Source of the DNA: Prosthecobacter debontii
GTDB lineage: Bacteria; Verrucomicrobiota; Verrucomicrobiia; Verrucomicrobiales; Verrucomicrobiaceae
Reading direction: 5' to 3'
Assembly (NCBI GenBank): GCA_945869695.1
Contig: CAMBPV010000004.1
Coordinates: 1 to 64,000 of the forward strand
DNA: 64,000 nucleotides
Shown: positions 18,811 to 44,899 of the stretch, in pieces
Numbering within the stretch: position 1 is the first letter of the stretch
How the letters are laid out: every line of letters starts with the position of its first letter
Notes under the pieces: model-generated
Database searches by the model: none
What the model saw: only the letters and a program-made list of their open reading frames with translations
Told to the model about the DNA's origin: nothing
Translations under genes and position numbers: made by a program

Positions 18811-18934
18811 CGTTCCGCAACTATAGAAGAATACCCCAAATCAGGGAAAGTGAATTTTTCGTTTAATGGATAAGACATCACCTTCACACTTCACTCCGAC
18901 TGCGAGTAAGTCCCCGCCTCCAACCAATGTCCCT

Positions 18935-21610: not shown

Positions 21611-22396
21611 ATGTTTTACTGGATTTACGACATTCCCACCTGGCAACTCGCCTCGCTCTTCACCCTCCTCTTCGTGGGAGTCACTTGGATCGGCATCCTC
21701 TTTGTCAGTCCGATCCTCAAGATTTGGTTCAAATCACAGGAGGGCATCAATGATCTGATCGGTTATGCGCTCGGGGCTTTCGGCGTTTTCTATGGTCTTC
21801 TGCTCGGACTTCTCGCCGTGGCCACCTACCAGAATTCCACCAACCTTGGGGGCACGGTCGCCCGCGAAGCGGCATCGTTGGCGGCGCTTTATCGCGATGT
21901 ATCAGCTTATCCGACTCCGATCCGGACGGAACTTCAGAAGCGCCTGCAGGACTACACGCGTTTTGTCATCGACAAAGCTTGGCCCGCCCAGCGCAAAGGC
22001 CAGATCCCGCAGGGAAGCGTGCAGATGATGGACGAGTTTCAGCAGGTGCTGACGCAGTTCGAGCCGGCGACGAAAGGACAGGAAATCGTTCACGCCGAAA
22101 CCCTCCGTCAATACAACGACATGATTCTGCTTCGTCGACTTCGAATCAACGACATCCAAGCCGGGATTCCGGGAGTGATGTGGTACGTCGTCGCCGTGGG
22201 AGCGATCATCAATACGCTCATCATCCTCTGCTTCCGCATAAGACTCGACATCCATCTCGTGATCGGCGGTGTTCTCTCCTTCTTCGTCGGCATGGTGATC
22301 TTTCTGGTCGCAGCGATGGATCACCCTCTCCGCGGCGAGGTCAGTGTAGGGCCGGATGCTTTTGAGGTGATTTACTCGAGCTTGATGAAGCGCTGA
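21611..22396 (+). CDS. DUF4239 membrane protein
   Basis: 261 residues. Two N-terminal membrane helices (ASLFTLLFVGVTWIGILFV and ALGAFGVFYGLLLGLLAVAT) are followed by a soluble helical segment (VAREAASLAALYRDVSAYPT) and two C-terminal helices (WYVVAVGAIINTLIILCF, LVIGGVLSFFVGMVIFLVAA), ending in the family-like MDHPLRGEVSVGPDAF. This is DUF4239, sometimes described as bestrophin-like; the function is unknown and channel activity is only a suggestion. A second DUF4239 gene lies at 33703, also directly after a sulfatase unit, so the pairing is unlikely to be chance. Confidence 0.85.
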   Translation: MFYWIYDIPTWQLASLFTLLFVGVTWIGILFVSPILKIWFKSQEGINDLIGYALGAFGVFYGLLLGLLAVATYQNSTNLGGTVAREAASLAALYRDVSAYPTPIRTELQKRLQDYTRFVIDKAWPAQRKGQIPQGSVQMMDEFQQVLTQFEPATKGQEIVHAETLRQYNDMILLRRLRINDIQAGIPGVMWYVVAVGAIINTLIILCFRIRLDIHLVIGGVLSFFVGMVIFLVAAMDHPLRGEVSVGPDAFEVIYSSLMKR

Positions 22397-27063: not shown

Positions 27064-27813
27064 ATGAAAAAGAAACTTCCGTTCTCACTTGTTCTCGCCC
27101 TCGCAGGCGCGGCCCTTCTGTCCTCCTGCTCCACCACACCGACGGCAAAACTTGATGCCAAAACAGACGCGGCCCTCACGGCCATGTGTGACAAGCTGGC
27201 GGCGGCCAAGACTCTCCGCGTCAGTGCCACGAGGCGCAATTCCCCTGGATTTCACGCCGGAGTGGATGTGTCGGAATCGGCCGAAGGGTCCGTCGTTGTC
27301 CGCCGTCCAGATCATCTCGCTGCTCAACTCAAGACCAACAAGGGCGCGAGAAAGATCGGATTTGATGGGAAGCAACTCACCATTGTGGACCTCGCAGCGG
27401 GCACCCACAGCACGGCAACGGCAGCGGGTGACATCGACCGCGCAGTCAGCGGCATCCAGTCCATCTACGGTGTGACGCCGCCCGTGGCAGAGCTCCTGGT
27501 GAACCGCCCGAAAGCCCATCTTTTGACGGGTGTGAAAACAGGCAAGCATGTCGGAACCGAGAGCATCGGCGGTGTGGTTTGTGATCACCTCGCGTTCGAG
27601 CAGGATGGTCTCAGCTGGCAGCTGTGGGTCGCCACGGGTGATAAGTTGCCCCGACGCATTTCCTTCGCTTACCCCAATGGCGAAGGCGGCGCTCCTCTAA
27701 CTGCCACGGCAACCCTCAGCCAATGGAAACTCGATGCCCCGGTTTCGGATGCTGAGCTCAGCGTCAAAGCCCCCTCAGGCAGCCGTGCGCTGGAAATGAT
27801 CACCCTTCCCTAA
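27064..27813 (+). CDS. DUF2092 lipoprotein, copy 1
   Basis: 249 residues with a lipobox (LAGAALLSSCSTT). The mature part matches DUF2092: a short helix (AALTAMCDKLAAAKTLRVSA), beta strands (SVVVRRPDHLAAQLKTNKGA, KIGFDGKQLTIVDL), YGVTPPVAELL, and CDHLAFEQDGLSWQLWV followed by DKLPRRISFAYP. The family is expected to adopt the LolA/LppX-like half-barrel that binds lipid acyl chains; that is general knowledge and not shown here. A second copy at 34478 shares AAKTLR, PPVAELL, FEQDG and DKLPRR. It starts 20 bp after the lipase-like gene, supporting a shared role. Confidence 0.85.
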   Translation: MKKKLPFSLVLALAGAALLSSCSTTPTAKLDAKTDAALTAMCDKLAAAKTLRVSATRRNSPGFHAGVDVSESAEGSVVVRRPDHLAAQLKTNKGARKIGFDGKQLTIVDLAAGTHSTATAAGDIDRAVSGIQSIYGVTPPVAELLVNRPKAHLLTGVKTGKHVGTESIGGVVCDHLAFEQDGLSWQLWVATGDKLPRRISFAYPNGEGGAPLTATATLSQWKLDAPVSDAELSVKAPSGSRALEMITLP

Positions 27814-28252: not shown

Positions 28253-29026
28253 ATGAAAACACATAGCCTCCTCGCACTGCTCGCTCTCACCCTTGGTGCC
28301 CACGCCGGCACTCCTGCACCTACGCCCATGGTAACACCCGCTGCGCCCACCAACGATGGTTGGTGGTTCCGCGCGGCTCCCTACGGATGGGTGACTGCCA
28401 TTGATGGCAATGTCGGCATCGGTCCGCTGTCCGCACCCGTTGACATCAGCATGAGTGACACAATCGACTCGCTCGACATGGCCTACATGGGTCTGCTCGA
28501 GGCCGGATTCGGCAAGTGGTCCTTTGGCGTGGATGTCATCTATGGCAAAACGTCCCAAGACATCGGCGGCGGGGGTCGGATCTTTGACAGCTTCCGCTAC
28601 GAGCAAAAGCAATGGCTCATCACTCCAGCCGTGGCCTACCGCGCGGTGCAGACAGATAGCTATCACATGGATGTGTTCGTGGGTGCTCGCATCACCATCC
28701 TTGAGGCCGATCTCACGGGTCGTTTTGTGAGTGGCGGAGAGATCTCTGTTGGTCGCGATACCGATTGGATCGACCCGATCATCGGCATCCGCGGCCAGGC
28801 TGAGCTAAGTGACAAAGTGTTCTTCCGCTACAATGCCGACATCGGCGGTTTCGGTGCCAATTCAGACCTCGTGTGGCAAGCCTTCGCGGGTTTCGGCCTC
28901 CATGTGAACGAAGCGACTTCCGTCGCCCTCGGCTATCGCGGACTCGGCATCGATTACACCAGCGGAAACTTCTCCCTCGACACCGTGACTCACGGTCCGG
29001 TCATTGGACTTGAAGTTAGGTTTTAA
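28253..29026 (+). CDS. outer-membrane beta-barrel protein
   Basis: 257 residues with a signal peptide (SLLALLALTLGAHAGTPA). The mature part shows alternating hydrophobic residues typical of barrel strands and ends in Phe (VIGLEVRF), the usual signal for outer-membrane insertion. Key segments are WWFRAAPYGWVTAIDGNVGI, DWIDPIIGIRGQAELSDKVF and DIGGFGANSDLVWQAFAGFG. The last two recur almost word for word in the protein at 40094 (WVDPFVGMRAHYNLTDRLY, DVGGFGVSSDLVWQAYGALG), so the two are paralogs. Function unknown; a channel or lipid-facing barrel is likely. Confidence 0.85.
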   Translation: MKTHSLLALLALTLGAHAGTPAPTPMVTPAAPTNDGWWFRAAPYGWVTAIDGNVGIGPLSAPVDISMSDTIDSLDMAYMGLLEAGFGKWSFGVDVIYGKTSQDIGGGGRIFDSFRYEQKQWLITPAVAYRAVQTDSYHMDVFVGARITILEADLTGRFVSGGEISVGRDTDWIDPIIGIRGQAELSDKVFFRYNADIGGFGANSDLVWQAFAGFGLHVNEATSVALGYRGLGIDYTSGNFSLDTVTHGPVIGLEVRF

Positions 29027-33702: not shown

Positions 33703-34449
33703 ATGAATTCCTCCGTCACAACTGCCATTATTCTGGCCTGCCTCATCGCAGCCACCTGGTTCGGGAAGCGCATCCAACGTCACCTGCCAGAGCCACACTT
33801 CAGTGCCGACACCAAAGATACGGTGAAGCTGGCCATGGGACTGGTCGCGACGATGGCCGCTCTCCTGCTCAGCTTGCTCGTGAGTTCGGCAAAGGACTCC
33901 TATGACACGGTTCGAAATGAAATCATTCAACTGGCATCCAAGGTGATCTTTCTTGACCGGGTTCTCCATCTCTACGGCGAAGAGACAGAGCCTCTGCGGA
34001 AAGGGTTCCGAACCGAGTTGGGAAATTCCTTTCCTGCGATTTGGTCACACGCTCACGGGGAAGTCAAACCAGAGATCCAGAACGGAGATGGTTTGTATCT
34101 TGGCATTCAAAAACTCACGCCAACCAATGACCTCCAGCGTGCGATGAAGGATCAGGCCTTGGACATTGCCCTTGAGCTTGGGCAATTGCGGACCCTGCTG
34201 CACTCCCAGGCCATGTCTTCCATTTCCATTCCCCTTTTGACGGTGTTGGTGTGCTGGCTCGTGATTATCTTTTTGAGCTTCAGCATCTTTGCCCCGCCAA
34301 ACAGGACTGCCAGCATCGCTTTGGTGGTATCCTCAATCTCCGTCGCAGGGGCTATGTTTCTGATACTCGAAATGGACCGCCCCTTCACCGGTCTGGTCCA
34401 CATCTCCCCTGAGCCCATCGTCAATGCACTGAATCAAATCGGAAAATAG
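33703..34449 (+). CDS. DUF4239 membrane protein, copy 2
   Basis: 248 residues, second DUF4239 gene. It has an N-terminal helix (VTTAIILACLIAATWFGKRI), a second (GLVATMAALLLSLLVSSAKD), a central helical segment (VRNEIIQLASKVIFLDRVLH) and two C-terminal helices (LLTVLVCWLVIIFLSFSIF, ALVVSSISVAGAMFLILEMD), then RPFTGLVHISPEP, the family-like ending. It shares layout, not sequence detail, with the protein at 21611. As there, it follows a sulfatase and a strong terminator and leads into another gene set. Function unknown. Confidence 0.85.
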   Translation: MNSSVTTAIILACLIAATWFGKRIQRHLPEPHFSADTKDTVKLAMGLVATMAALLLSLLVSSAKDSYDTVRNEIIQLASKVIFLDRVLHLYGEETEPLRKGFRTELGNSFPAIWSHAHGEVKPEIQNGDGLYLGIQKLTPTNDLQRAMKDQALDIALELGQLRTLLHSQAMSSISIPLLTVLVCWLVIIFLSFSIFAPPNRTASIALVVSSISVAGAMFLILEMDRPFTGLVHISPEPIVNALNQIGK

Positions 34450-34477: not shown

Positions 34478-35233
34478 ATGAAAACAACATCCCGTTCCTT
34501 GATCTGTAAATCTGCTCCCCTTTTCGCCCTCTACCTGACGGCGGGACTGCTGCACGTTGGCTCCGCGCTCGCCGAGATTGAGCCTGCTGCCAAAACTCTG
34601 ACCCAAGCCGTCGCCACCAAATTAGCTGCCGCCAAAACCCTGAGGCTCACAGCCAAGCACGCACTTGACCCATCGCTAGGCGTCGGTGCGCGACTGGAAA
34701 AAGGCCCGCTTCAGATGACCGTGAAGCGTCCGAATCAGTTCTACGTCCTTCAGCAAGCCGGCGAAGAAACACGCGAGATCGCTTATGATGGCAAGACCTT
34801 TTGCATCATGCACCCGCAACTTAAACACCACGCCTGCGCACCTCTCAAGGCGACTTCCATTGAGCAAGTCGCTGACCTGATCGATCAGCGTTTTGGTTTC
34901 CGCCCGCCGGTGGCGGAGCTTCTGGCTGAAGACATGGCCTCCCAGATGTTTCTGCATGTTACTTCTGCCCGCATCACCGGCACGGAGTGGGTTGGCTGGA
35001 CTCGATGCCAAAAGATACACTTCGAGCAGGATGGGATGACCGCCGATCTCTGGGTCGGCCTGAAGGACAAACTTCCACGCCGTTACCTCCTCACCTTCAC
35101 CCGCATGAAGGGTCACCCAACTTGGGACATCCGACTTTCCAAATGGGAGCTCAATGCAGCAGTGAATGAAAAACTCTTCTCAAAAAAACCAGCCGCCGAT
35201 TCTAGCGCGATCCCCATGCTCAAAAGCCGCTAA
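34478..35233 (+). CDS. DUF2092 protein, copy 2
   Basis: 251 residues with an ordinary signal peptide (LFALYLTAGLLHVGSALAEI) and no lipobox, unlike copy 1. The family layout is kept: AVATKLAAAKTLRLTAKHAL, MTVKRPNQFYVLQQAGEETR, IAYDGKTFCIMHPQLKHH, FGFRPPVAELLAED, KIHFEQDGMTADLWVGLKDK followed by LPRRYLLTF. Soluble and lipid-anchored versions of one fold within 8 kb recall the LolA/LolB arrangement, in which a soluble carrier delivers to an anchored acceptor; this analogy is my inference. The small Tyr-rich protein gene follows after 39 bp. Confidence 0.85.
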   Translation: MKTTSRSLICKSAPLFALYLTAGLLHVGSALAEIEPAAKTLTQAVATKLAAAKTLRLTAKHALDPSLGVGARLEKGPLQMTVKRPNQFYVLQQAGEETREIAYDGKTFCIMHPQLKHHACAPLKATSIEQVADLIDQRFGFRPPVAELLAEDMASQMFLHVTSARITGTEWVGWTRCQKIHFEQDGMTADLWVGLKDKLPRRYLLTFTRMKGHPTWDIRLSKWELNAAVNEKLFSKKPAADSSAIPMLKSR

Positions 35234-35272: not shown

Positions 35273-35704
35273 ATGAAAACAAATTCACTTCTCACTCTCG
35301 TCCTCGCCGCCTCCTCGCTGCTCATGACCCTCACGCCGGACTCGCTGGCTGCCCCACGCCATCGCCCGGCAAATCCACGCGGAGCACTCGATCCCCGGGG
35401 GCCTCTTGATCCACGCGGTCCCCTCGATCCACGTGGACCTCTTGACCCTCGCGGCCCGCTCGATCCACGCGGCCCGCTCGATCCACGCGGCCCCTTCGAT
35501 CCTCGGGGTCCCTTTGATCCACGCAATCCACACCGCTACATGTACGGTCTGCCAGGAGGCTACGTCGTCCGCCCCTTCCGTGGTGTGAATTTCTACTTCT
35601 GCAGCGGCACTTACTATTACCCGTATTACATCAACGGTCAGACGGTTTACACGATCTGCGTCATCTCCAATGGCGTCCCTGTCGTGCCCGCGCGCCCCTA
35701 TTGA
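35273..35704 (+). CDS. small Tyr-rich secreted protein with DPRGPL repeats, copy 2
   Basis: 143 residues. Signal peptide (SLLTLVLAASSLLMTLTPDS). Residues 39-86 are eight copies of a six-residue unit (LDPRGP, the last two FDPRGP and FDPRNP). The C-terminal domain (YMYGLPGGYVVRPFRGVNFY, YYYPYYINGQTVY) matches that of the protein at 27845, which has an Arg/Gly-rich linker in place of the repeat. The repeat is Pro-rich and charged, so it likely forms an extended spacer that lifts the Tyr-rich domain from the membrane or crosses the periplasm. The stop codon region overlaps the first codon of the next ORF. Confidence 0.75.
   Translation: MKTNSLLTLVLAASSLLMTLTPDSLAAPRHRPANPRGALDPRGPLDPRGPLDPRGPLDPRGPLDPRGPLDPRGPFDPRGPFDPRNPHRYMYGLPGGYVVRPFRGVNFYFCSGTYYYPYYINGQTVYTICVISNGVPVVPARPY
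35387..35530 (+). repeat. 18-bp tandem repeat encoding DPRGPL
   Basis: Eight in-frame 18-bp units of the type CTCGATCCACGCGGCCCG. Units differ at synonymous positions (CGC/CGT/CGG/CGG-GGG), so selection has kept the peptide while the DNA diverged. Copy number may vary between strains. Confidence 0.85.
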
Positions 35705-36546
35705 GAAAGTCCCAACTTCGCAGAACCGTGAAGTCTCGCGCTCAAGCTCCACCTGATAGGAAACGGCACACCGCACTCCGTCTTGGGATGCTTGGATTCA
35801 TGTTGATTCCTCTCTCGCGGGCCGATACCCCGAGAGAGGATGCCCACATCTCACTCCGCTACCCAGGTCGTGCGTGGTTGCAGCCCTATGATCCCACCCT
35901 TCTGAGCCGGCGGATACTCACGGAGTATGAGTACGAGGAAAAAGCAGATGGCGACTCCAGTGAAAAATGGCTCTGGAACGTCCGTGGTGCCTTGCGAGTG
36001 AGCGAGGATATCACCTTCGGTGCCCAATTGGAAGTGCCGTGGCGGTGGGTGGATACGAACGAGGGTGATGACGCAGGCTGGGGAGACCTGGAGACCCGAC
36101 TCGGATTCGCAGGTCACCTCACGGATTCCACCCGTTGGGGTCTCGGTATGAATTTAAAATTCCCCACGGCCTCCGAACTCCTCGGAGACGGAGTCTTTGA
36201 ACTGCGCCCCTTGGCCTCGATGCGATGGAGCTTGACCGACCGAATTCAAATTGGAACCAGCTTCGAGTACAGTTTCACCCCCCGTGACGAGGGCACCCAA
36301 GATGTCTCATCCTTGGAGATCAGACTTCCCCTCACTCTGAAGCTTGGCGAAAAACTCTCTGCTTTCACCAGCTACAAGCCTCGATGGAATTTCGCCCATG
36401 ACACCGACCGCCACCGCTTGGAGTTTGGCCTCACCCGCCTGCTGGGTGCTCACAAAGAATATGCCCTTTCACTCGGCGCTGAGATTCCGCTCACTGACGA
36501 GTCCCTAGCCTGGAAAGGCTCTCTAGGCTTCACTTGGTTTTTCTGA
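35701..36546 (+). CDS. putative outer-membrane barrel protein
   Basis: 281 codons from a TTG overlapping the upstream stop; an ATG at 35788 would give a shorter and more usual signal peptide (MLGFMLIPLSRADTPRED), and I think it the likelier start. The mature part reads as a beta-barrel: RRILTEYEYEEKADGDSSEK, ITFGAQLEVPWRWVDTNEGD, GDLETRLGFAGHLTDSTRWG, LGMNLKFPTASELLGDGVFE, and the C-terminal GSLGFTWFF with terminal Phe. The type resembles MetA-pathway-of-phenol-degradation or other transport-associated barrels. It is the fourth predicted barrel in the locus and closes the second DUF2092 - Tyr-rich - barrel set. Confidence 0.75.
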   Translation: MRKSQLRRTVKSRAQAPPDRKRHTALRLGMLGFMLIPLSRADTPREDAHISLRYPGRAWLQPYDPTLLSRRILTEYEYEEKADGDSSEKWLWNVRGALRVSEDITFGAQLEVPWRWVDTNEGDDAGWGDLETRLGFAGHLTDSTRWGLGMNLKFPTASELLGDGVFELRPLASMRWSLTDRIQIGTSFEYSFTPRDEGTQDVSSLEIRLPLTLKLGEKLSAFTSYKPRWNFAHDTDRHRLEFGLTRLLGAHKEYALSLGAEIPLTDESLAWKGSLGFTWFF

Positions 36547-36776: not shown

Positions 36777-39185
36777 ATGAAACTGAAATATGGACACCTC
36801 GTTCTAGCATTCGGCCTTGCGCTCAGTGCCTCAGGAAAGGACAGACTGGATCGCACCTCACTGCCCATCCCGGAGCCGGACCACCCTCGCAGCACGGTGC
36901 TCGACGCCCGCGACGCCAAGGCTCCACCGCGCTTCGAGGTCAAGGCTCCGGCAGGTGCGCCGAACGTGCTCATCGTGCTTGTTGACGACATGGGCTTCGG
37001 CATGCCCAGCGCCTTCGGTGGCCCCGTGCGGATGCCCTCGGCAGACCGCCTTGCCAGCCAGGGACTGCGCTACAATCACTTTCACACCACCGCGCTGTGC
37101 TCGCCCACGCGGGTATCCCTGCTCTCTGGACGCAATCACCACATGAACAACATGGGCAGCATCACCGAGACGGCCACGGGGTTCCCAGGCAATACGGGGC
37201 AGCGCCCAAACAGCGTCGCGCCCCTCGCCGAAATGCTGCGCCTGAATGGTTACAGCACCTCCTTCTTCGGCAAAAACCACGAGACGGCACCCTGGGAGGT
37301 CAGCGTCTCCGGCCCGACCGACCGCTGGCCGACGCGCTCGGGCTTCGACAAGTTTTACGGCTTCTTCGGTGGCGAGACCGACCAGTGGAACCCCACCATC
37401 TACGACGGCATGGCGCGCATCCCCACGCCACATCGCCCTGGTTATAACTTCATGACCGACATGGCCGACCAGGCCATCTCGTGGATGAAATTCCAAAAGT
37501 CGCTCACGCCGGACAAGCCCTTCTTTATGTACTTTGCACCCGGAGCCACCCACGCACCGCATCATGTGCCTGCCGAATGGATCGCCAAAAACAAGGGCCG
37601 CTTCGATGGCGGCTGGGACAAGCTGCGCAATGAGACGCTCGCCCGCCAAATCGCCCTCGGGGTCGTGCCGGAAGGCACCAAGCTCGCCAATAAACCCGAT
37701 GGCATCAAAGACTGGGACACACTGAGCCCTGACGAAAAGAAACTCTTTTCCCGCCAAATGGAGGTTTACTCAGCCTTCGGTGAATTCGCAGACGACGAGA
37801 TCGGCCGCCTCTTTGACGCCGTTGGCGAGATTGGCCAGCTCGATAACACACTCATTTTTTACATCATGGGTGACAACGGCACCAGCGCTGAGGGCGGCAT
37901 GAACGGCATGTTCAGCGAGATGACCTACTTCAACAATGTGCAGGAGTCCGTGCAAGACATGCTCAAACACTACGACGAGTGGGGCGGACCGACGACCTAT
38001 CCACACATGGCCGCAGGCTGGGCCGTCGCGGGTGACACGCCCTTCATGTGGACCAAGCAAATGCCCTCAAACTACGGTGGCACGCGCAATGGCATGATCG
38101 TCTCCTGGCCAAAAGGCATCAAATCCACCCATCAAGTGCGCACCCAGTGGCACCACGTCATCGACGTCGCACCCACCGTGCTCGAAGCCGCCAGCCTGCC
38201 CGAGCCCAAGAGCGTCAACGGCATCGTCCAGTCACCCATCGAGGGCGTCAGCATGGTTTACAGCTTCAACAAGCCCGAGGCCAAAAGCACCCACAAGACC
38301 CAGTATTTCGAAATCTTCGGCAACCGCGCCATCTATCACGACGGCTGGTTCGCCGGCACTGTCCACCGTGCCCCCTGGGAGAAAACGCCGCGTCGAAAAT
38401 TGGCCGAGGACATCTGGGAGCTCTACGATACGACGAAAGATTTCAGCCTCACTAATAACCTCGCCGCCGAAAATCCAGCCAAGCTCAAGGAACTGCAGGC
38501 CATCTTCATGAGAGACGCCAGCAAGTATCGCGCGCTGCCCATCGATGACCGCCTGATGGAACGCATGGTCGCGTCATCAGCGGGAAGACCTGATTTGATG
38601 GGCGAGCGCACCTCGCTCACACTCGGAGCAGGCATGGACTCCATGAGCGAAAACGTCTTCATCAACATCAAAAACCGCTCCCTCTCGATCACCGCCGATG
38701 TAGACATCCCCGAAGGCGGCGCAAATGGCGTGATCCTTGCGCAGGGCGGACGTTTCGGCGGCTGGAGCCTGTATCTCAAAGACGGCAAGCCCACCTATTG
38801 CTACAACTTTGTAGGCTTGCAGGAATACAAAGTTGCCGCTCCCACCGCGCTGGCTACGGGGAAGACTACCGTCCGCATGAACTTTGACTACGACGGCGGT
38901 GGCATTGGCAAAGGCGGCCTGGCCACTCTGCTGGTCAACGGCGAGAAAGTCGCCAGTGGCCGGATCGAACAAACACAACTCGGCATCTTCTCAGCAGACG
39001 AGACCGCGGCTGCGGGCGTGGATGACGCAACGCCCGTCACAGCAGACTACAAGGAGCGTGACAACGCTTTCACAGGTAAGCTCATCCAAGTCACCGTGGA
39101 CGTGAAGCCCGTCGGAGCCGCCGTCAAAGCAGAGGCGGAAGAAGCCAAGAAGGAGTCCGATGTGAAAAAGGCGTTGTCCAACTAG
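36777..39185 (+). CDS. large secreted arylsulfatase, copy 2
   Basis: 802 residues. Signal peptide (HLVLAFGLALSASGKDRL). The sulfatase core is present: APNVLIVLVDDMGFGMPSAF, formylglycine site ALCSPTRVSLLSGRNHHMNN (Cys near 108), TSFFGKNHETAPW, FYIMGDNGTSAEGGM. The C-terminal lectin-like domain corresponds to that of copy 1 (LSITADVDIPEGGANGVILA, FDYDGGGIGKGG). It ends in a lysine/glutamate-rich tail (AEAEEAKKESDVKKALSN) missing in copy 1. Conserved blocks along the full length show common descent. The preceding 230 bp carry no gene. It likely acts on a related but different sulfated substrate. Confidence 0.93.
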   Translation: MKLKYGHLVLAFGLALSASGKDRLDRTSLPIPEPDHPRSTVLDARDAKAPPRFEVKAPAGAPNVLIVLVDDMGFGMPSAFGGPVRMPSADRLASQGLRYNHFHTTALCSPTRVSLLSGRNHHMNNMGSITETATGFPGNTGQRPNSVAPLAEMLRLNGYSTSFFGKNHETAPWEVSVSGPTDRWPTRSGFDKFYGFFGGETDQWNPTIYDGMARIPTPHRPGYNFMTDMADQAISWMKFQKSLTPDKPFFMYFAPGATHAPHHVPAEWIAKNKGRFDGGWDKLRNETLARQIALGVVPEGTKLANKPDGIKDWDTLSPDEKKLFSRQMEVYSAFGEFADDEIGRLFDAVGEIGQLDNTLIFYIMGDNGTSAEGGMNGMFSEMTYFNNVQESVQDMLKHYDEWGGPTTYPHMAAGWAVAGDTPFMWTKQMPSNYGGTRNGMIVSWPKGIKSTHQVRTQWHHVIDVAPTVLEAASLPEPKSVNGIVQSPIEGVSMVYSFNKPEAKSTHKTQYFEIFGNRAIYHDGWFAGTVHRAPWEKTPRRKLAEDIWELYDTTKDFSLTNNLAAENPAKLKELQAIFMRDASKYRALPIDDRLMERMVASSAGRPDLMGERTSLTLGAGMDSMSENVFINIKNRSLSITADVDIPEGGANGVILAQGGRFGGWSLYLKDGKPTYCYNFVGLQEYKVAAPTALATGKTTVRMNFDYDGGGIGKGGLATLLVNGEKVASGRIEQTQLGIFSADETAAAGVDDATPVTADYKERDNAFTGKLIQVTVDVKPVGAAVKAEAEEAKKESDVKKALSN

Positions 39186-39246: not shown

Positions 39247-40059
39247 TTGAAAAACAAACTCCTCTGCCCATCCGCTCTCGGCCTGCTCCTGCTCGCCTCG
39301 TCCATCGGATGCTCATCCAAACCCGTCTCGGATCTCAAATTCCGCGCCGATCGAAAAGAACGCCTCGCCCAAGGTTGTATCTTCTACTTCGACGGAGCCG
39401 GTGGCGGCACAACCAAGGCGAACTACGCGGACGGCGTCATCAAAGGAATGCTGGATGCCGGCTATCGCGGTGCGGGTGAAATCGTCTCGTGGGAGACCGG
39501 CAAGGGACTCATCAAGGATCAAGATGCCAGCGTCGAGTACAAGCGCTCCAAGGCCAAGGAAGGAGCCGCCAGCATTCAGCGCTACCAGAAAGACTACCCC
39601 GGTGCTCCGCTGGGTCTGCTCGGTTTCTCCGCAGGCACCGCCGAGGCCATCTTCGCGCTTGAGGAGCTATCGGTCAACGCGCCAGTGGATCGGGTTGTCT
39701 TGCTGGGCACGTCCATCAGCCGTGACTACGACCTGACCGAGGCGCTCAAGCGGGTGAAGGGTAAACTCTACATCATCACCTCCACCCACGACCACATGGT
39801 CGGGACAATGATGAAGTTCTCGGGCACCGCCGACCGGAAGCGTCACGACCCCGGCGCAGGCATCAAAGGATTTATTCTTCCTGCCGGAGCCACCGAAGAG
39901 ACCAAGAAGCTCTACGCCGAAAAAATCGTCACCATCCCCTACAGCAAGGACTTCAGGAAGGACGGAGACAAAGACCATCACTTTGACAACGTGAAGGAAG
40001 ACTTCATCCGCGACCACGTGGCACCGCTGCTCATGGGTCAGCCGGGCTCCTCATTGTAA
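39247..40059 (+). CDS. alpha/beta-hydrolase-like lipoprotein
   Basis: 270 residues; TTG start (no ATG gives a signal). Lipobox in LLLLASSIGCSSK. The core suggests an alpha/beta hydrolase: GCIFYFDGAGGGTTKANYAD, GEIVSWETGKGLIKDQ, a nucleophile elbow LGLLGFSAGTAEAIF (GxSxG), VDRVVLLGTSISRDYDL, a possible acid in YIITSTHDHMVG and a late His in KDHHFDNVKEDF. The substrate is unknown. It lies between the second large sulfatase and the coiled-coil barrel and is the second lipase-like lipoprotein in the locus. Confidence 0.75.
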   Translation: MKNKLLCPSALGLLLLASSIGCSSKPVSDLKFRADRKERLAQGCIFYFDGAGGGTTKANYADGVIKGMLDAGYRGAGEIVSWETGKGLIKDQDASVEYKRSKAKEGAASIQRYQKDYPGAPLGLLGFSAGTAEAIFALEELSVNAPVDRVVLLGTSISRDYDLTEALKRVKGKLYIITSTHDHMVGTMMKFSGTADRKRHDPGAGIKGFILPAGATEETKKLYAEKIVTIPYSKDFRKDGDKDHHFDNVKEDFIRDHVAPLLMGQPGSSL

Positions 40060-40093: not shown

Positions 40094-41485
40094 ATGACCT
40101 CATCCATCGCCAAACATCTCGTCTGCCAGCTCGCCCTTGCTACGGCCCTGCTTGCAGGAACGCCGGCTCCCAAAGCCCCACCGACTGTTGCGATCTCACC
40201 CACGATTGATCCGTGGGAGATCACCCTGAGTCCCTACGGCTGGATGGCAGGATTGGAGGGCACCACCGGTGTGCGCGGATTCACCGCAGAGACGGATGTC
40301 CCGCTCAAAGACATCCTCAGAAATCTCGACATGATCGCGATGCTCAATATCGAGGCCAGAAAAGGCCGCTGGGGTGGGTGGGTTGATGGACTCTACCTCA
40401 AGATGTCCATGGACGCTCAGACCCCCGGCCCTCTTCTCGACTCCGTCGGTTTGAGCGTCGAGCAGATCGTTGCCGAGGCTGCCCTCTTCTACCGCGTCTG
40501 GGAGAGTGATCGCGGATTCCTCGACCTCTATGCCGGTGCTCGCTACATGTCCGTCGGCGGAGAGCTCAGTCTCCATGTCAGTGACTCCGGCGTCGAGCAA
40601 CTCTCCCGCAGGTTGAGTGATGCCGTCGTGAACCGCGTGGTCGATGAAATCTCCAGCATCGCCAGCTCCAAAGCCGCCAGTGCCAAAGGCTCCCTCACAA
40701 GCCAGATCACCCATCTCGTTTCAGATCGTCTTGCCGAGGCCACCTCCCGCGCCACATCCGTCAGAAATCAAGCCACCGAGGGCAGGAGTGAGATCGCAGC
40801 CCAGGTCGCAGCCAAAGGCGCGGAGGTCCGAGACCTTGTTGGAAATCTGCAAGACATCGCCGCCTCCCACCCGAAGCTCGTCGAGGTCATCCGCAACAGT
40901 GAACGCATCCAGGCCGCCCTGCGCAACGCCGTCAGAACAGGCCTCGAGCAACGCGCTCTCGAGGCACAACTCGAGCAAAAAGTCACCGCCGCGCAGCAGG
41001 ACATCGCCACGCTTCAAAACGCTACCGCCACCGTCCGCAGTCGGATCGAACAAGCCCGCACCGCTTTGGCCGCCGCCCGCGCCGAGCTTGATGCCGCACG
41101 CTCCAGCGCCCGCAGCCGCGCCAAAAGTGCCGTCGAGAAAGCCAATAAAAAACTCGCCTCCGCCATCGAGTCCGCTTTGCACGAAGCCATCCCCGATCAA
41201 CTCTCCCAAACCGCCGGTTGGGTGGACCCCTTCGTCGGCATGCGTGCCCACTACAATCTGACCGACCGCCTCTACGCCGTCGCCAAGGCCGACGTCGGCG
41301 GCTTCGGCGTCAGCAGCGACCTCGTCTGGCAGGCCTACGGTGCCCTCGGTTACCACCTCAGCAAAAGCGGCAAGACCACCGTCGAGCTCGGCTACAAATA
41401 CATGGCCGTGGACTACGCCAAAGGCGGCTTCACCTACGACGTCGCCATGAGCGGCGTGATGTTAAACATCGGCTTCCGGTTCTAA
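40094..41485 (+). CDS. outer-membrane barrel with long coiled-coil insert
   Basis: 463 residues. Signal peptide (VCQLALATALLAGTPAPK). Residues about 40-165 and 375-463 form a beta-barrel like that at 28253 (WEITLSPYGWMAGLEGTTGV, FLDLYAGARYMSVGGELSLH; WVDPFVGMRAHYNLTDRLYA, DVGGFGVSSDLVWQAYGALG; terminal FRF). Between them sit some 200 residues of Ala/Arg/Glu/Gln-rich helix with heptad-like spacing (LVSDRLAEATSRATSVRNQA, QQDIATLQNATATVRSRIEQ). The paralog lacks this insert. A helix of that length could stretch far into the periplasm, or outward, as a tether or channel. The gene closes the locus. Function unknown. Confidence 0.8.
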   Translation: MTSSIAKHLVCQLALATALLAGTPAPKAPPTVAISPTIDPWEITLSPYGWMAGLEGTTGVRGFTAETDVPLKDILRNLDMIAMLNIEARKGRWGGWVDGLYLKMSMDAQTPGPLLDSVGLSVEQIVAEAALFYRVWESDRGFLDLYAGARYMSVGGELSLHVSDSGVEQLSRRLSDAVVNRVVDEISSIASSKAASAKGSLTSQITHLVSDRLAEATSRATSVRNQATEGRSEIAAQVAAKGAEVRDLVGNLQDIAASHPKLVEVIRNSERIQAALRNAVRTGLEQRALEAQLEQKVTAAQQDIATLQNATATVRSRIEQARTALAAARAELDAARSSARSRAKSAVEKANKKLASAIESALHEAIPDQLSQTAGWVDPFVGMRAHYNLTDRLYAVAKADVGGFGVSSDLVWQAYGALGYHLSKSGKTTVELGYKYMAVDYAKGGFTYDVAMSGVMLNIGFRF

Positions 41486-43225: not shown

Positions 43226-44899
43226 TTGGCTGCCCCCAATCCGCTCGCCTCCTACGCTTACACCCTCGACCATAAAGTCTCCTCCATCGCCTTCTCCAAC
43301 GGTACGAAGACTGTAAAAACCTATGACAGCGTCGGCAGATTGGATAAAGTCCTGCACATGAGCCGTGGCGGCACCGCACTTTGGAGTGAAACCTCACGCT
43401 ACGATCAGCGTGACCGCCGCACCGCCCGCATCCACCATGATGGCAAGGCTGACCTTTTCTCGTACGATCCCGCAGGTCAGGTGACGGCGGCGGCCTACGG
43501 TCAATCGGCGCTCATCCTTCCTCAGGACCCCAAAGCAGACACCGTTCAGCACCAGGCGGTCACTCGATGGGACCAGACCTTCGCTTATGATCCAGCAGGC
43601 AATCGCTCCCAGTTCACCGAAGCTCCAGTGGGCAGTGCGGAGCCCGATGCCATCCGCCAATGGAACTATCAAGCCAACGCGGCCAATCAATACACCGCCG
43701 TCAAGGAGACCACCTCCACCGAGCCCTCCACCACACAACCCCGGTACGACCCCAATGGAAACCTCCTCACCGACGACCGCAACACTTACACTTGGGACGC
43801 AGACATCCACCTTCTGAGCGTCACCACCAAACCAAGCGAAGTTCGAGCACCCGGGTCTGGACAACTCGAAACTTTAAACCAGAAACCTATAACTTCCGAA
43901 TTCCGCTACGACCCACTCCACCGCCGAGTCGCTCGGCTAGAACCAGACGGCACCCTCACCCACTTCATCCATGACGGCTGGAACGTGATCGCCGAATATG
44001 CGACTCCGCCAAATCGTGAATCACAAATCGTAAATCATAAATTGCCATCGGCTCGCCACACCTGGGGCCACGACATCAGCGGAAAACCTCAAGGAGTCGG
44101 GGGAATCGGCGGCCTTCTCGCCTCAACGCATCCCCAACAGTCGTCAACCACTGCCAACAACAGCCAACCATCGCAAACCTTCTTCTTGAACTATGACAGC
44201 AACGGCAACGTCATCCTGCTCACTGACTCCAAAGGCGAGGAGTCCGGCCGCTACGCATATGATGCTTTCGGAAAAACTCTCCTCGCCTCTGGTGCGATGG
44301 CGCAGCAAAACAGGTATCGCTTCAGCGCCAAGCCCGTGGAGATTGCGAGTGGCCTGAGTTTTTACGGGTATCGATATTACTCGCCAAAATTGGGGCGGTG
44401 GATAAGCAAGGACCCCATCCAAGAGAGAGGAGGTCCGAATGTCTACGCGTTCGTCACGAATGCACCGTTAAAACACACTGATAAGTTGGGCCTAATTCTT
44501 ACTGCCGCAGAAGCAGCAGCTTTAGCTGAAGCCGAAGCGGCAGCAGCAGCTTCCTCAAGTGGAGCACTAAGTCGTTGCGGATGTTACGCTGCTGCAGCTG
44601 TGGTGGGTTGGGAACTTGGAGAACTTGTAAATGAATACACTGAGATTGATGAGATAATAGGCGAGGTTATTTTAGACTTCATCGACGATCTAAACCTTGG
44701 TGGAAGAAGGTGGATGTGTGCGGGGTCGTGCAATGTTCAAAAAATCAAAAAGGATGCTTGTTGTCCAGATAGGGTTTCGGGCGTTGGGTACGGTTCCAAT
44801 GAAGAAGAAGCGTCAAAAAACATGCAAAGAGACGCAAATAGTAAAGTTCCTCAAGGGTGTTACAAGCGCCACTGCTACCCTATATGTGCGAGATTGTAA
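43226..44899 (+). CDS. N-terminally truncated RHS-repeat protein with Cys-rich tip
   Basis: 557 codons from a TTG. Tandem YD/RHS repeats are clear (KTYDSVGRLDKVLHMSRGGT, LFSYDPAGQVTAAAYGQ, FAYDPAGNRSQFTEAP, RYDPNGNLLTDDRNTYTWDA), then the RHS core ending (FYGYRYYSPKLGRWISKDPI, GGPNVYAFVTNAPL). The variable tip follows: an Ala-rich helix, then a Cys-rich domain (RRWMCAGSCNVQKIKKDACC, GCYKRHCYPICARL). The tip DNA is visibly richer in A+T than the core, typical of exchangeable toxin ends. A signal-peptide-like start at 43189 (MRLVILSFFLCHF) lies in another frame, and an in-frame TGA stands at 43190. This is probably a remnant of a much longer gene after internal deletion. Confidence 0.8.
   Translation: MAAPNPLASYAYTLDHKVSSIAFSNGTKTVKTYDSVGRLDKVLHMSRGGTALWSETSRYDQRDRRTARIHHDGKADLFSYDPAGQVTAAAYGQSALILPQDPKADTVQHQAVTRWDQTFAYDPAGNRSQFTEAPVGSAEPDAIRQWNYQANAANQYTAVKETTSTEPSTTQPRYDPNGNLLTDDRNTYTWDADIHLLSVTTKPSEVRAPGSGQLETLNQKPITSEFRYDPLHRRVARLEPDGTLTHFIHDGWNVIAEYATPPNRESQIVNHKLPSARHTWGHDISGKPQGVGGIGGLLASTHPQQSSTTANNSQPSQTFFLNYDSNGNVILLTDSKGEESGRYAYDAFGKTLLASGAMAQQNRYRFSAKPVEIASGLSFYGYRYYSPKLGRWISKDPIQERGGPNVYAFVTNAPLKHTDKLGLILTAAEAAALAEAEAAAAASSSGALSRCGCYAAAAVVGWELGELVNEYTEIDEIIGEVILDFIDDLNLGGRRWMCAGSCNVQKIKKDACCPDRVSGVGYGSNEEEASKNMQRDANSKVPQGCYKRHCYPICARL

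Follow-up and report, generated by a model that had tools for sequence, protein, structure and literature searches.

The closest known architecture for a helical domain inserted in an outer-membrane barrel is that of the Hop family of Helicobacter adhesins (type Vf; BabA, SabA, HopQ, and LabA), in which the passenger occupies the loop between strands 1 and 2 of an 8-stranded barrel (PMC9289746) and comprises a head plus a handle of two antiparallel helices (PMC4643811). Here, we analyze an interrupted barrel of the Verrucomicrobiota, encoded by an open reading frame (ORF) with an ATG start at positions 40094–41485 on the forward strand of a 64,000-nucleotide stretch of Prosthecobacter debontii DNA (the window, on contig C4 of a 4.9 Mb assembly in 333 contigs). 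The 463-residue product carries a ~204-residue helical segment (res. 164–367) in a barrel family whose members often lack any insert. Sequence and comparison show that the segment is inserted, that it is inherited, that it has a helical periodicity, and that its gene is associated with the surrounding locus; the insert likely folds as a two-helix hairpin emerging from a barrel. The design of an interrupted barrel is already known, so that an architecture left without a name in the original prediction, a model's reading of the DNA letters, has a precedent in the Hop family (PMC9289746); the present form is a genuine, inherited new variant.

The window protein differs from the Hop adhesins in its insertion site (predicted strands 5–6 versus strands 1–2), its strand number (ten, in low-confidence models, versus eight), and its lineage (Verrucomicrobiota versus Helicobacter). 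Whereas Hop proteins bear a head with disulfides, the window protein has a handle only, and none of the 13 inserts examined contains a cysteine. We did not assign the protein to type Vf because insertion site, strand number, and disulfides all disagree. In Hop, the helical domain is extracellular with a two-helix antiparallel base; in the window protein, a helical hairpin is predicted and supported by comparison, and a general barrel rule would place it on the outside. By analogy, the window protein may act as a headless Hop-like handle. FapF and OmpM also combine a barrel with a helical rod, but their coils are N-terminal, trimeric, and periplasmic (PMC5557850, PMC10628300). The prediction does not fit a trimeric autotransporter, which has a short C-terminal anchor of 4 strands per chain; here ten strands are predicted, five on either side of the insert.

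A helical insertion in an insert-free barrel family

The 40094–41485 product has the hallmarks of an outer-membrane β-barrel, namely a signal peptide, an even number of predicted strands, and an aromatic or hydrophobic C-terminus. The signal peptide (res. 1–21; 40094–40156) is supported by sequence, alignment, and an AlphaFold2 helix at residues 2–19, with cleavage inferred before GTPAP; the C-terminal residue is phenylalanine or leucine in 13 of 13 aligned orthologs. A search of the genome with this protein found two copies only, the insert gene itself and an insert-free paralog at 28253–29026 on the same strand, which has an 11-residue loop at the insert site according to BLASTP and loop comparison. 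BLASTP against the paralog returned an N-terminal block (res. 22–229, 29% identity, E = 9e-22), whose barrel homology stops near residue 160 and continues as a weak tail, and a C-terminal block (res. 376–463, 40% identity, E = 7e-23). The two blocks indicate that the flanks are a single barrel family split by the insert. Through homology on both sides of the insert, the window protein thus belongs to the insert-free family of the paralog, whose members in Verrucomicrobiota and on rhizobial plasmids are annotated as hypothetical and differ in having a loop 3 of 5–15 residues. The rhizobial-plasmid homologues align to the barrel only, and none reaches 80% query coverage.

Searching related genomes identified 28 Verrucomicrobiota proteins, the window protein included, with a loop of 118–263 residues at the insert site and ~30 insert-free members with 5–15 residues there; no intermediate lengths were seen. 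This comparison is stronger evidence for the insertion than the structure models described below. The named relatives come from Verrucomicrobiaceae and Verrucomicrobiales metagenome-assembled genomes, and the long-loop proteins span several families of the order plus two remoter members, from genomes G227 (same phylum) and G358 (same class). When a maximum-likelihood tree is built from the barrel part alone, long-loop proteins cluster, with two label changes (one gain, one loss) compared with 16 when labels are shuffled. The loss would concern L107 (G586:C71), which has a 15-residue loop and is nested in the long-loop clade on a starred branch of the barrel tree; loss of the hairpin is its simplest and probable explanation, making L107 a useful natural deletion. 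The insert is inherited across many relatives and is a genuine feature.

The original prediction had described the flanks as barrel halves matching the paralog and the helix as an insertion into a barrel loop or turn. Both points hold, the site being a loop: the first through the two BLASTP blocks, both AlphaFold2 models, and barrel-type Foldseek matches; the second through the paralog alignment, the models, and the loop comparison. The search for the same insert across the family, which it had proposed, shows that the insert is not unique to this protein. Searches of Pfam and NCBIfam with the insert gave chance coiled-coil matches only, a PDB sequence search with single sequences gave no match, and the insert barrel is not covered by any Pfam, NCBIfam, or PDB sequence entry. 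No relatives were found in viral contigs, and the literature searched contained no description of this insert.

The longest insert found, of 263 residues (L039, 1249–2958 of G358:C68), lies beside a gene for a 1549-residue autotransporter and a histidine kinase gene. As in the window, a distantly related family of the phylum (L074, 5926–8046 of G227:C7) has an insert-free and an insert-bearing barrel encoded close together on one strand, the second of the pair being truncated by the contig end.

Predicted structure of the barrel and hairpin

The two helices, the strand count, and the side of the membrane are predicted. We built AlphaFold2 models of the window protein and of its relative L033, each from a four-sequence alignment. 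The window protein is modeled with ten strands, including residues 42–50, 81–90, 93–101, 115–137, and 141–162 before the insert and 374–388 to 450–462 after it, and with helices at residues 164–258, 260–268, and 270–365; the mean predicted local distance difference test (pLDDT) score of 56.6 and predicted template modeling (pTM) score of 0.41 make this model weak when taken alone. The L033 model (pLDDT 60.2, pTM 0.49) has the same order of elements, with ten main strands and with helices at residues 168–226, 228–236, and 238–292; loop 1 contains two further short strands. On the DNA, strands 1–5 (res. 42–162, from DSSP assignment and homology to the paralog) correspond to 40217–40579, the ascending helix (res. 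164–258) to 40583–40867, the hairpin tip (res. 259–269) to 40868–40900, the descending helix (res. 270–365) to 40901–41188, and strands 6–10 (res. 374–463, ending in a C-terminal phenylalanine) to 41213–41482, all on the forward strand. The top Foldseek matches of both models are outer-membrane barrels (Legionella porin I, Pla/OmpT, and OpcA), with a target template modeling score of at most 0.59. The 10-stranded OpcA and omptins (Pla, OmpT) are among the best solved-structure matches to the barrel shape; they share 6–8% identity with the window protein, lack a helical hairpin, and are not claimed to have a common function with it.

In both low-confidence models, strands 5 and 6 flank the insert, which forms a pair of antiparallel helices of nearly equal length joined by a short tip. 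The pair is antiparallel because both helix ends join neighboring strands. The arms measure 95 and 96 residues in the window protein and 59 and 55 in L033; they are near-equal within each model despite a 77-residue difference in insert length, and both are ~40 residues longer in the window protein. Over the set of inserts, the strongest helix break falls closer to the center than a random break would, at a mean distance of 0.10 of the length compared with 0.18. Arm lengths correlate with a Pearson coefficient of −0.27, above the null mean of −0.68; the lack of a positive correlation stems from several inserts in which the automatic finder put the tip in the wrong place, and we placed weight on the distance-from-center measure and the two models rather than on this correlation.

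Helix periodicity and packing

Averaged over 23 inserts, the hydrophobic periodicity of each arm peaks at 94–95.5° on three scales, equivalent to a stripe repeating every 3.75–3.85 residues per turn by bootstrap. Averaging over relatives was essential to this result, since the window sequence by itself gave no clear outcome in a plain Fourier test. Power at 102.9° is about half that of the peak, and the repeat rules out a canonical heptad coiled coil at 3.5 residues per turn. Repeats of 15/4 are found in right-handed trimeric stalks such as YadA. Conserved positions at the base of the ascending arm (167, 171, 174, 178, 182, 186, and 190) and of the descending arm (343, 347, 350, 354, 358, 362, and 366) are mostly hydrophobic or small and are spaced 4-3-4-4-4-4 on both arms, a pattern that fits helices packed nearly straight or with a right-handed twist, as opposed to a heptad coil. 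What had been called a 200-residue coiled coil is retained as a helical segment of about that length and revised in form: it is predicted as two antiparallel helices of ~95 residues, with a non-heptad repeat. The monomer structure prediction that the original prediction had advised agrees, at low confidence, with the barrel flanks and the helical insert, and replaces the single coil by paired helices.

The periodicity also bears on a rather unlikely alternative, that the insert forms a compact helical bundle, or apolipoprotein-like helices lying on the outer leaflet and possibly binding lipids for the neighboring hydrolases. A PDB profile search returned apolipoprotein E and apolipophorin III as weak matches, the strongest helix break of several inserts falls about a quarter of the way along, and the isolated OmpM stalk, although predicted to be an extended coiled coil, crystallized as a compact structure containing helical hairpins (PMC10628300). 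On the other hand, each arm is one unbroken helix in both models, the 3.75–3.85 periodicity departs from the 3.6 expected for an isolated surface helix, and the apolipoprotein matches are probably compositional, as charged, alanine-rich helices may yield them.

Conservation of the hairpin tip

The mean BLOSUM score is 2.4 for the barrel, 1.4 for the ascending base, 0.5 for the mid-ascending arm, 0.9 for the tip region, 1.2 for the mid-descending arm, and 1.6 for the descending base; the mid-ascending arm is thus less conserved than the bases and the tip of the insert. The base of the descending helix aligns in relatives as AVxRAEKKLAxxIExxLxxAIP. The tip reads HPKL in the window protein and HPxL or GPVSDAVR in relatives, and in this area the HPxL and A(I/V)R patterns recur; A(I/V)R is present even in the protein from the distant genome G227 (VGDAIRGEI). 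Partial conservation of the tip combined with variable arms would be expected of a presenting rod, though helix capping would conserve the tip too.

This partial conservation would also suit an adhesin, a Hop-like handle binding other cells, polysaccharide, or particles, next to which the sulfatase locus would be incidental. We regard such a role as improbable: there is no head domain, the inserts are without cysteines, and the gene link to DUF2092 and sulfatase described below suggests a nutrient or envelope role.

Orientation of the hairpin

In barrels with both termini in the periplasm, periplasmic turns are short and outer loops are long. The mean lengths of the connections along the chain (13 orthologs) are 30, 2, 13, 3, 148, 4, 7, 4, and 9, so that the odd connections (30, 13, 148, 7, and 9) are long and the even ones (2, 3, 4, and 4) are short, with the insert on the long side. 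Combined with the barrel rule, this points to the insert as loop 3, and the hairpin should face outward as the third extracellular loop. The outward orientation is the chief correction to the original prediction.

The original prediction had considered a periplasm-spanning tether or a tunnel. In such a reading the hairpin would point into the periplasm, singly or in an oligomer like those of TolC, FapF, or OmpM. It draws on the periplasmic location of the barrel-attached coils of FapF and OmpM (PMC5557850, PMC10628300) and on the fact that the side is assigned here by rule. We regard it as improbable: the long-loop side is where the insert is found, the coils of FapF and OmpM are N-terminal rather than loop inserts, and a length that varies widely among relatives (118–263 residues) is unfit for a fixed periplasmic span.

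A surface rod as the favored explanation

We favor, at somewhat better than even likelihood for architecture and role weighed jointly, an explanation in which the loop-3 hairpin is a surface rod. The third extracellular loop of a ten-stranded barrel (strands 5–6) would have become a long antiparallel hairpin whose two amphipathic helices pack together through the stripe of ~3.8-residue spacing. The resulting near-straight rod, ~14 nm in the window species (95 residues × 0.15 nm), would project from the cell surface, probably reaching that distance out of the cell, and present the conserved tip. It could serve as a stalk or antenna that keeps a partner or substrate off the membrane for the adjacent set of sulfatase, hydrolase, and barrel; this role for the neighboring locus is tentative.

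Several points weigh against the surface rod. Both models are of low confidence (pLDDT 57–60; helices ~50–64) and derive from four-sequence alignments; the tip-position test ignores relatedness, and the tip finder failed on L009, L010, and L096–L100. The sidedness follows from general barrel rules, and the weak profile matches with helices of apolipoproteins (E = 0.003) allow helices lying on lipid.

Short, irregular loops are the norm in barrels. A loop turned into a predicted ~14 nm rod within a single clade, where insert-free paralogs share the genome, offers a clean natural comparison for asking how a barrel manages to fold, and to export, a large inserted loop, and the insert barrel is a candidate surface device in bacteria with several sulfatase genes. 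More speculatively, and with little likelihood, these proteins might constitute a Verrucomicrobiota-specific class of interrupted barrels whose loop-borne hairpins, possibly bundled across barrels, form a rod at the surface or prolong a channel, with a length that can be adjusted, and thereby link surface sulfatases and lipoprotein hydrolases with the uptake of substrate.

Genomic neighborhood of the insert gene

The insert gene is linked to a hydrolase-centered envelope locus. Upstream on the same strand lie genes for a bestrophin-like protein (33703–34449, profile match to PF14023), a DUF2092 protein (34478–35233), a barrel related to PF13557 that falls just below the family cut-off (35701–36546), a PF00884 sulfatase (36777–39185), and a putative hydrolase-like lipoprotein (39247–40059), so named from the appearance of its sequence and with no Pfam match. 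DUF2092 has 0–5 matches per genome, yet occurs within ~7 kb of the insert gene in 10 of 15 genomes; a sulfatase of the 31250 type is found within ~6 kb in 8 of 15. Similar lipoproteins are encoded near the insert gene in three relatives, and in L069 and L077 the sulfatase, lipoprotein, bestrophin-like, DUF2092, 35701-like barrel, and insert barrel genes form one same-strand run. In the distant G227 genome, DUF3604 neighbors the insert-type barrel; among the rhizobial insert-free homologues, one is likewise beside DUF3604, another is near an arylsulfatase, and a third has neither. The literature searched yielded nothing useful on DUF2092 with sulfatase or on such a locus.

Elsewhere in the window are sulfatases at 18866 and 31250 in addition to 36777, a second DUF2092 gene at 27064 besides that at 34478, a second bestrophin-like gene at 21611 besides that at 33703, an alpha/beta hydrolase (25353), OprB (29855), and other barrels. 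The region 20599–41485 resembles two related gene sets, one with the insert-free and one with the insert barrel, in which bestrophin-like, DUF2092, PF00884 sulfatase, hydrolase, and barrel genes are each present at least twice. Farther along, an ORF that looks RHS-like from its sequence (43226–44899) lies directly downstream of a DUF1501 gene.
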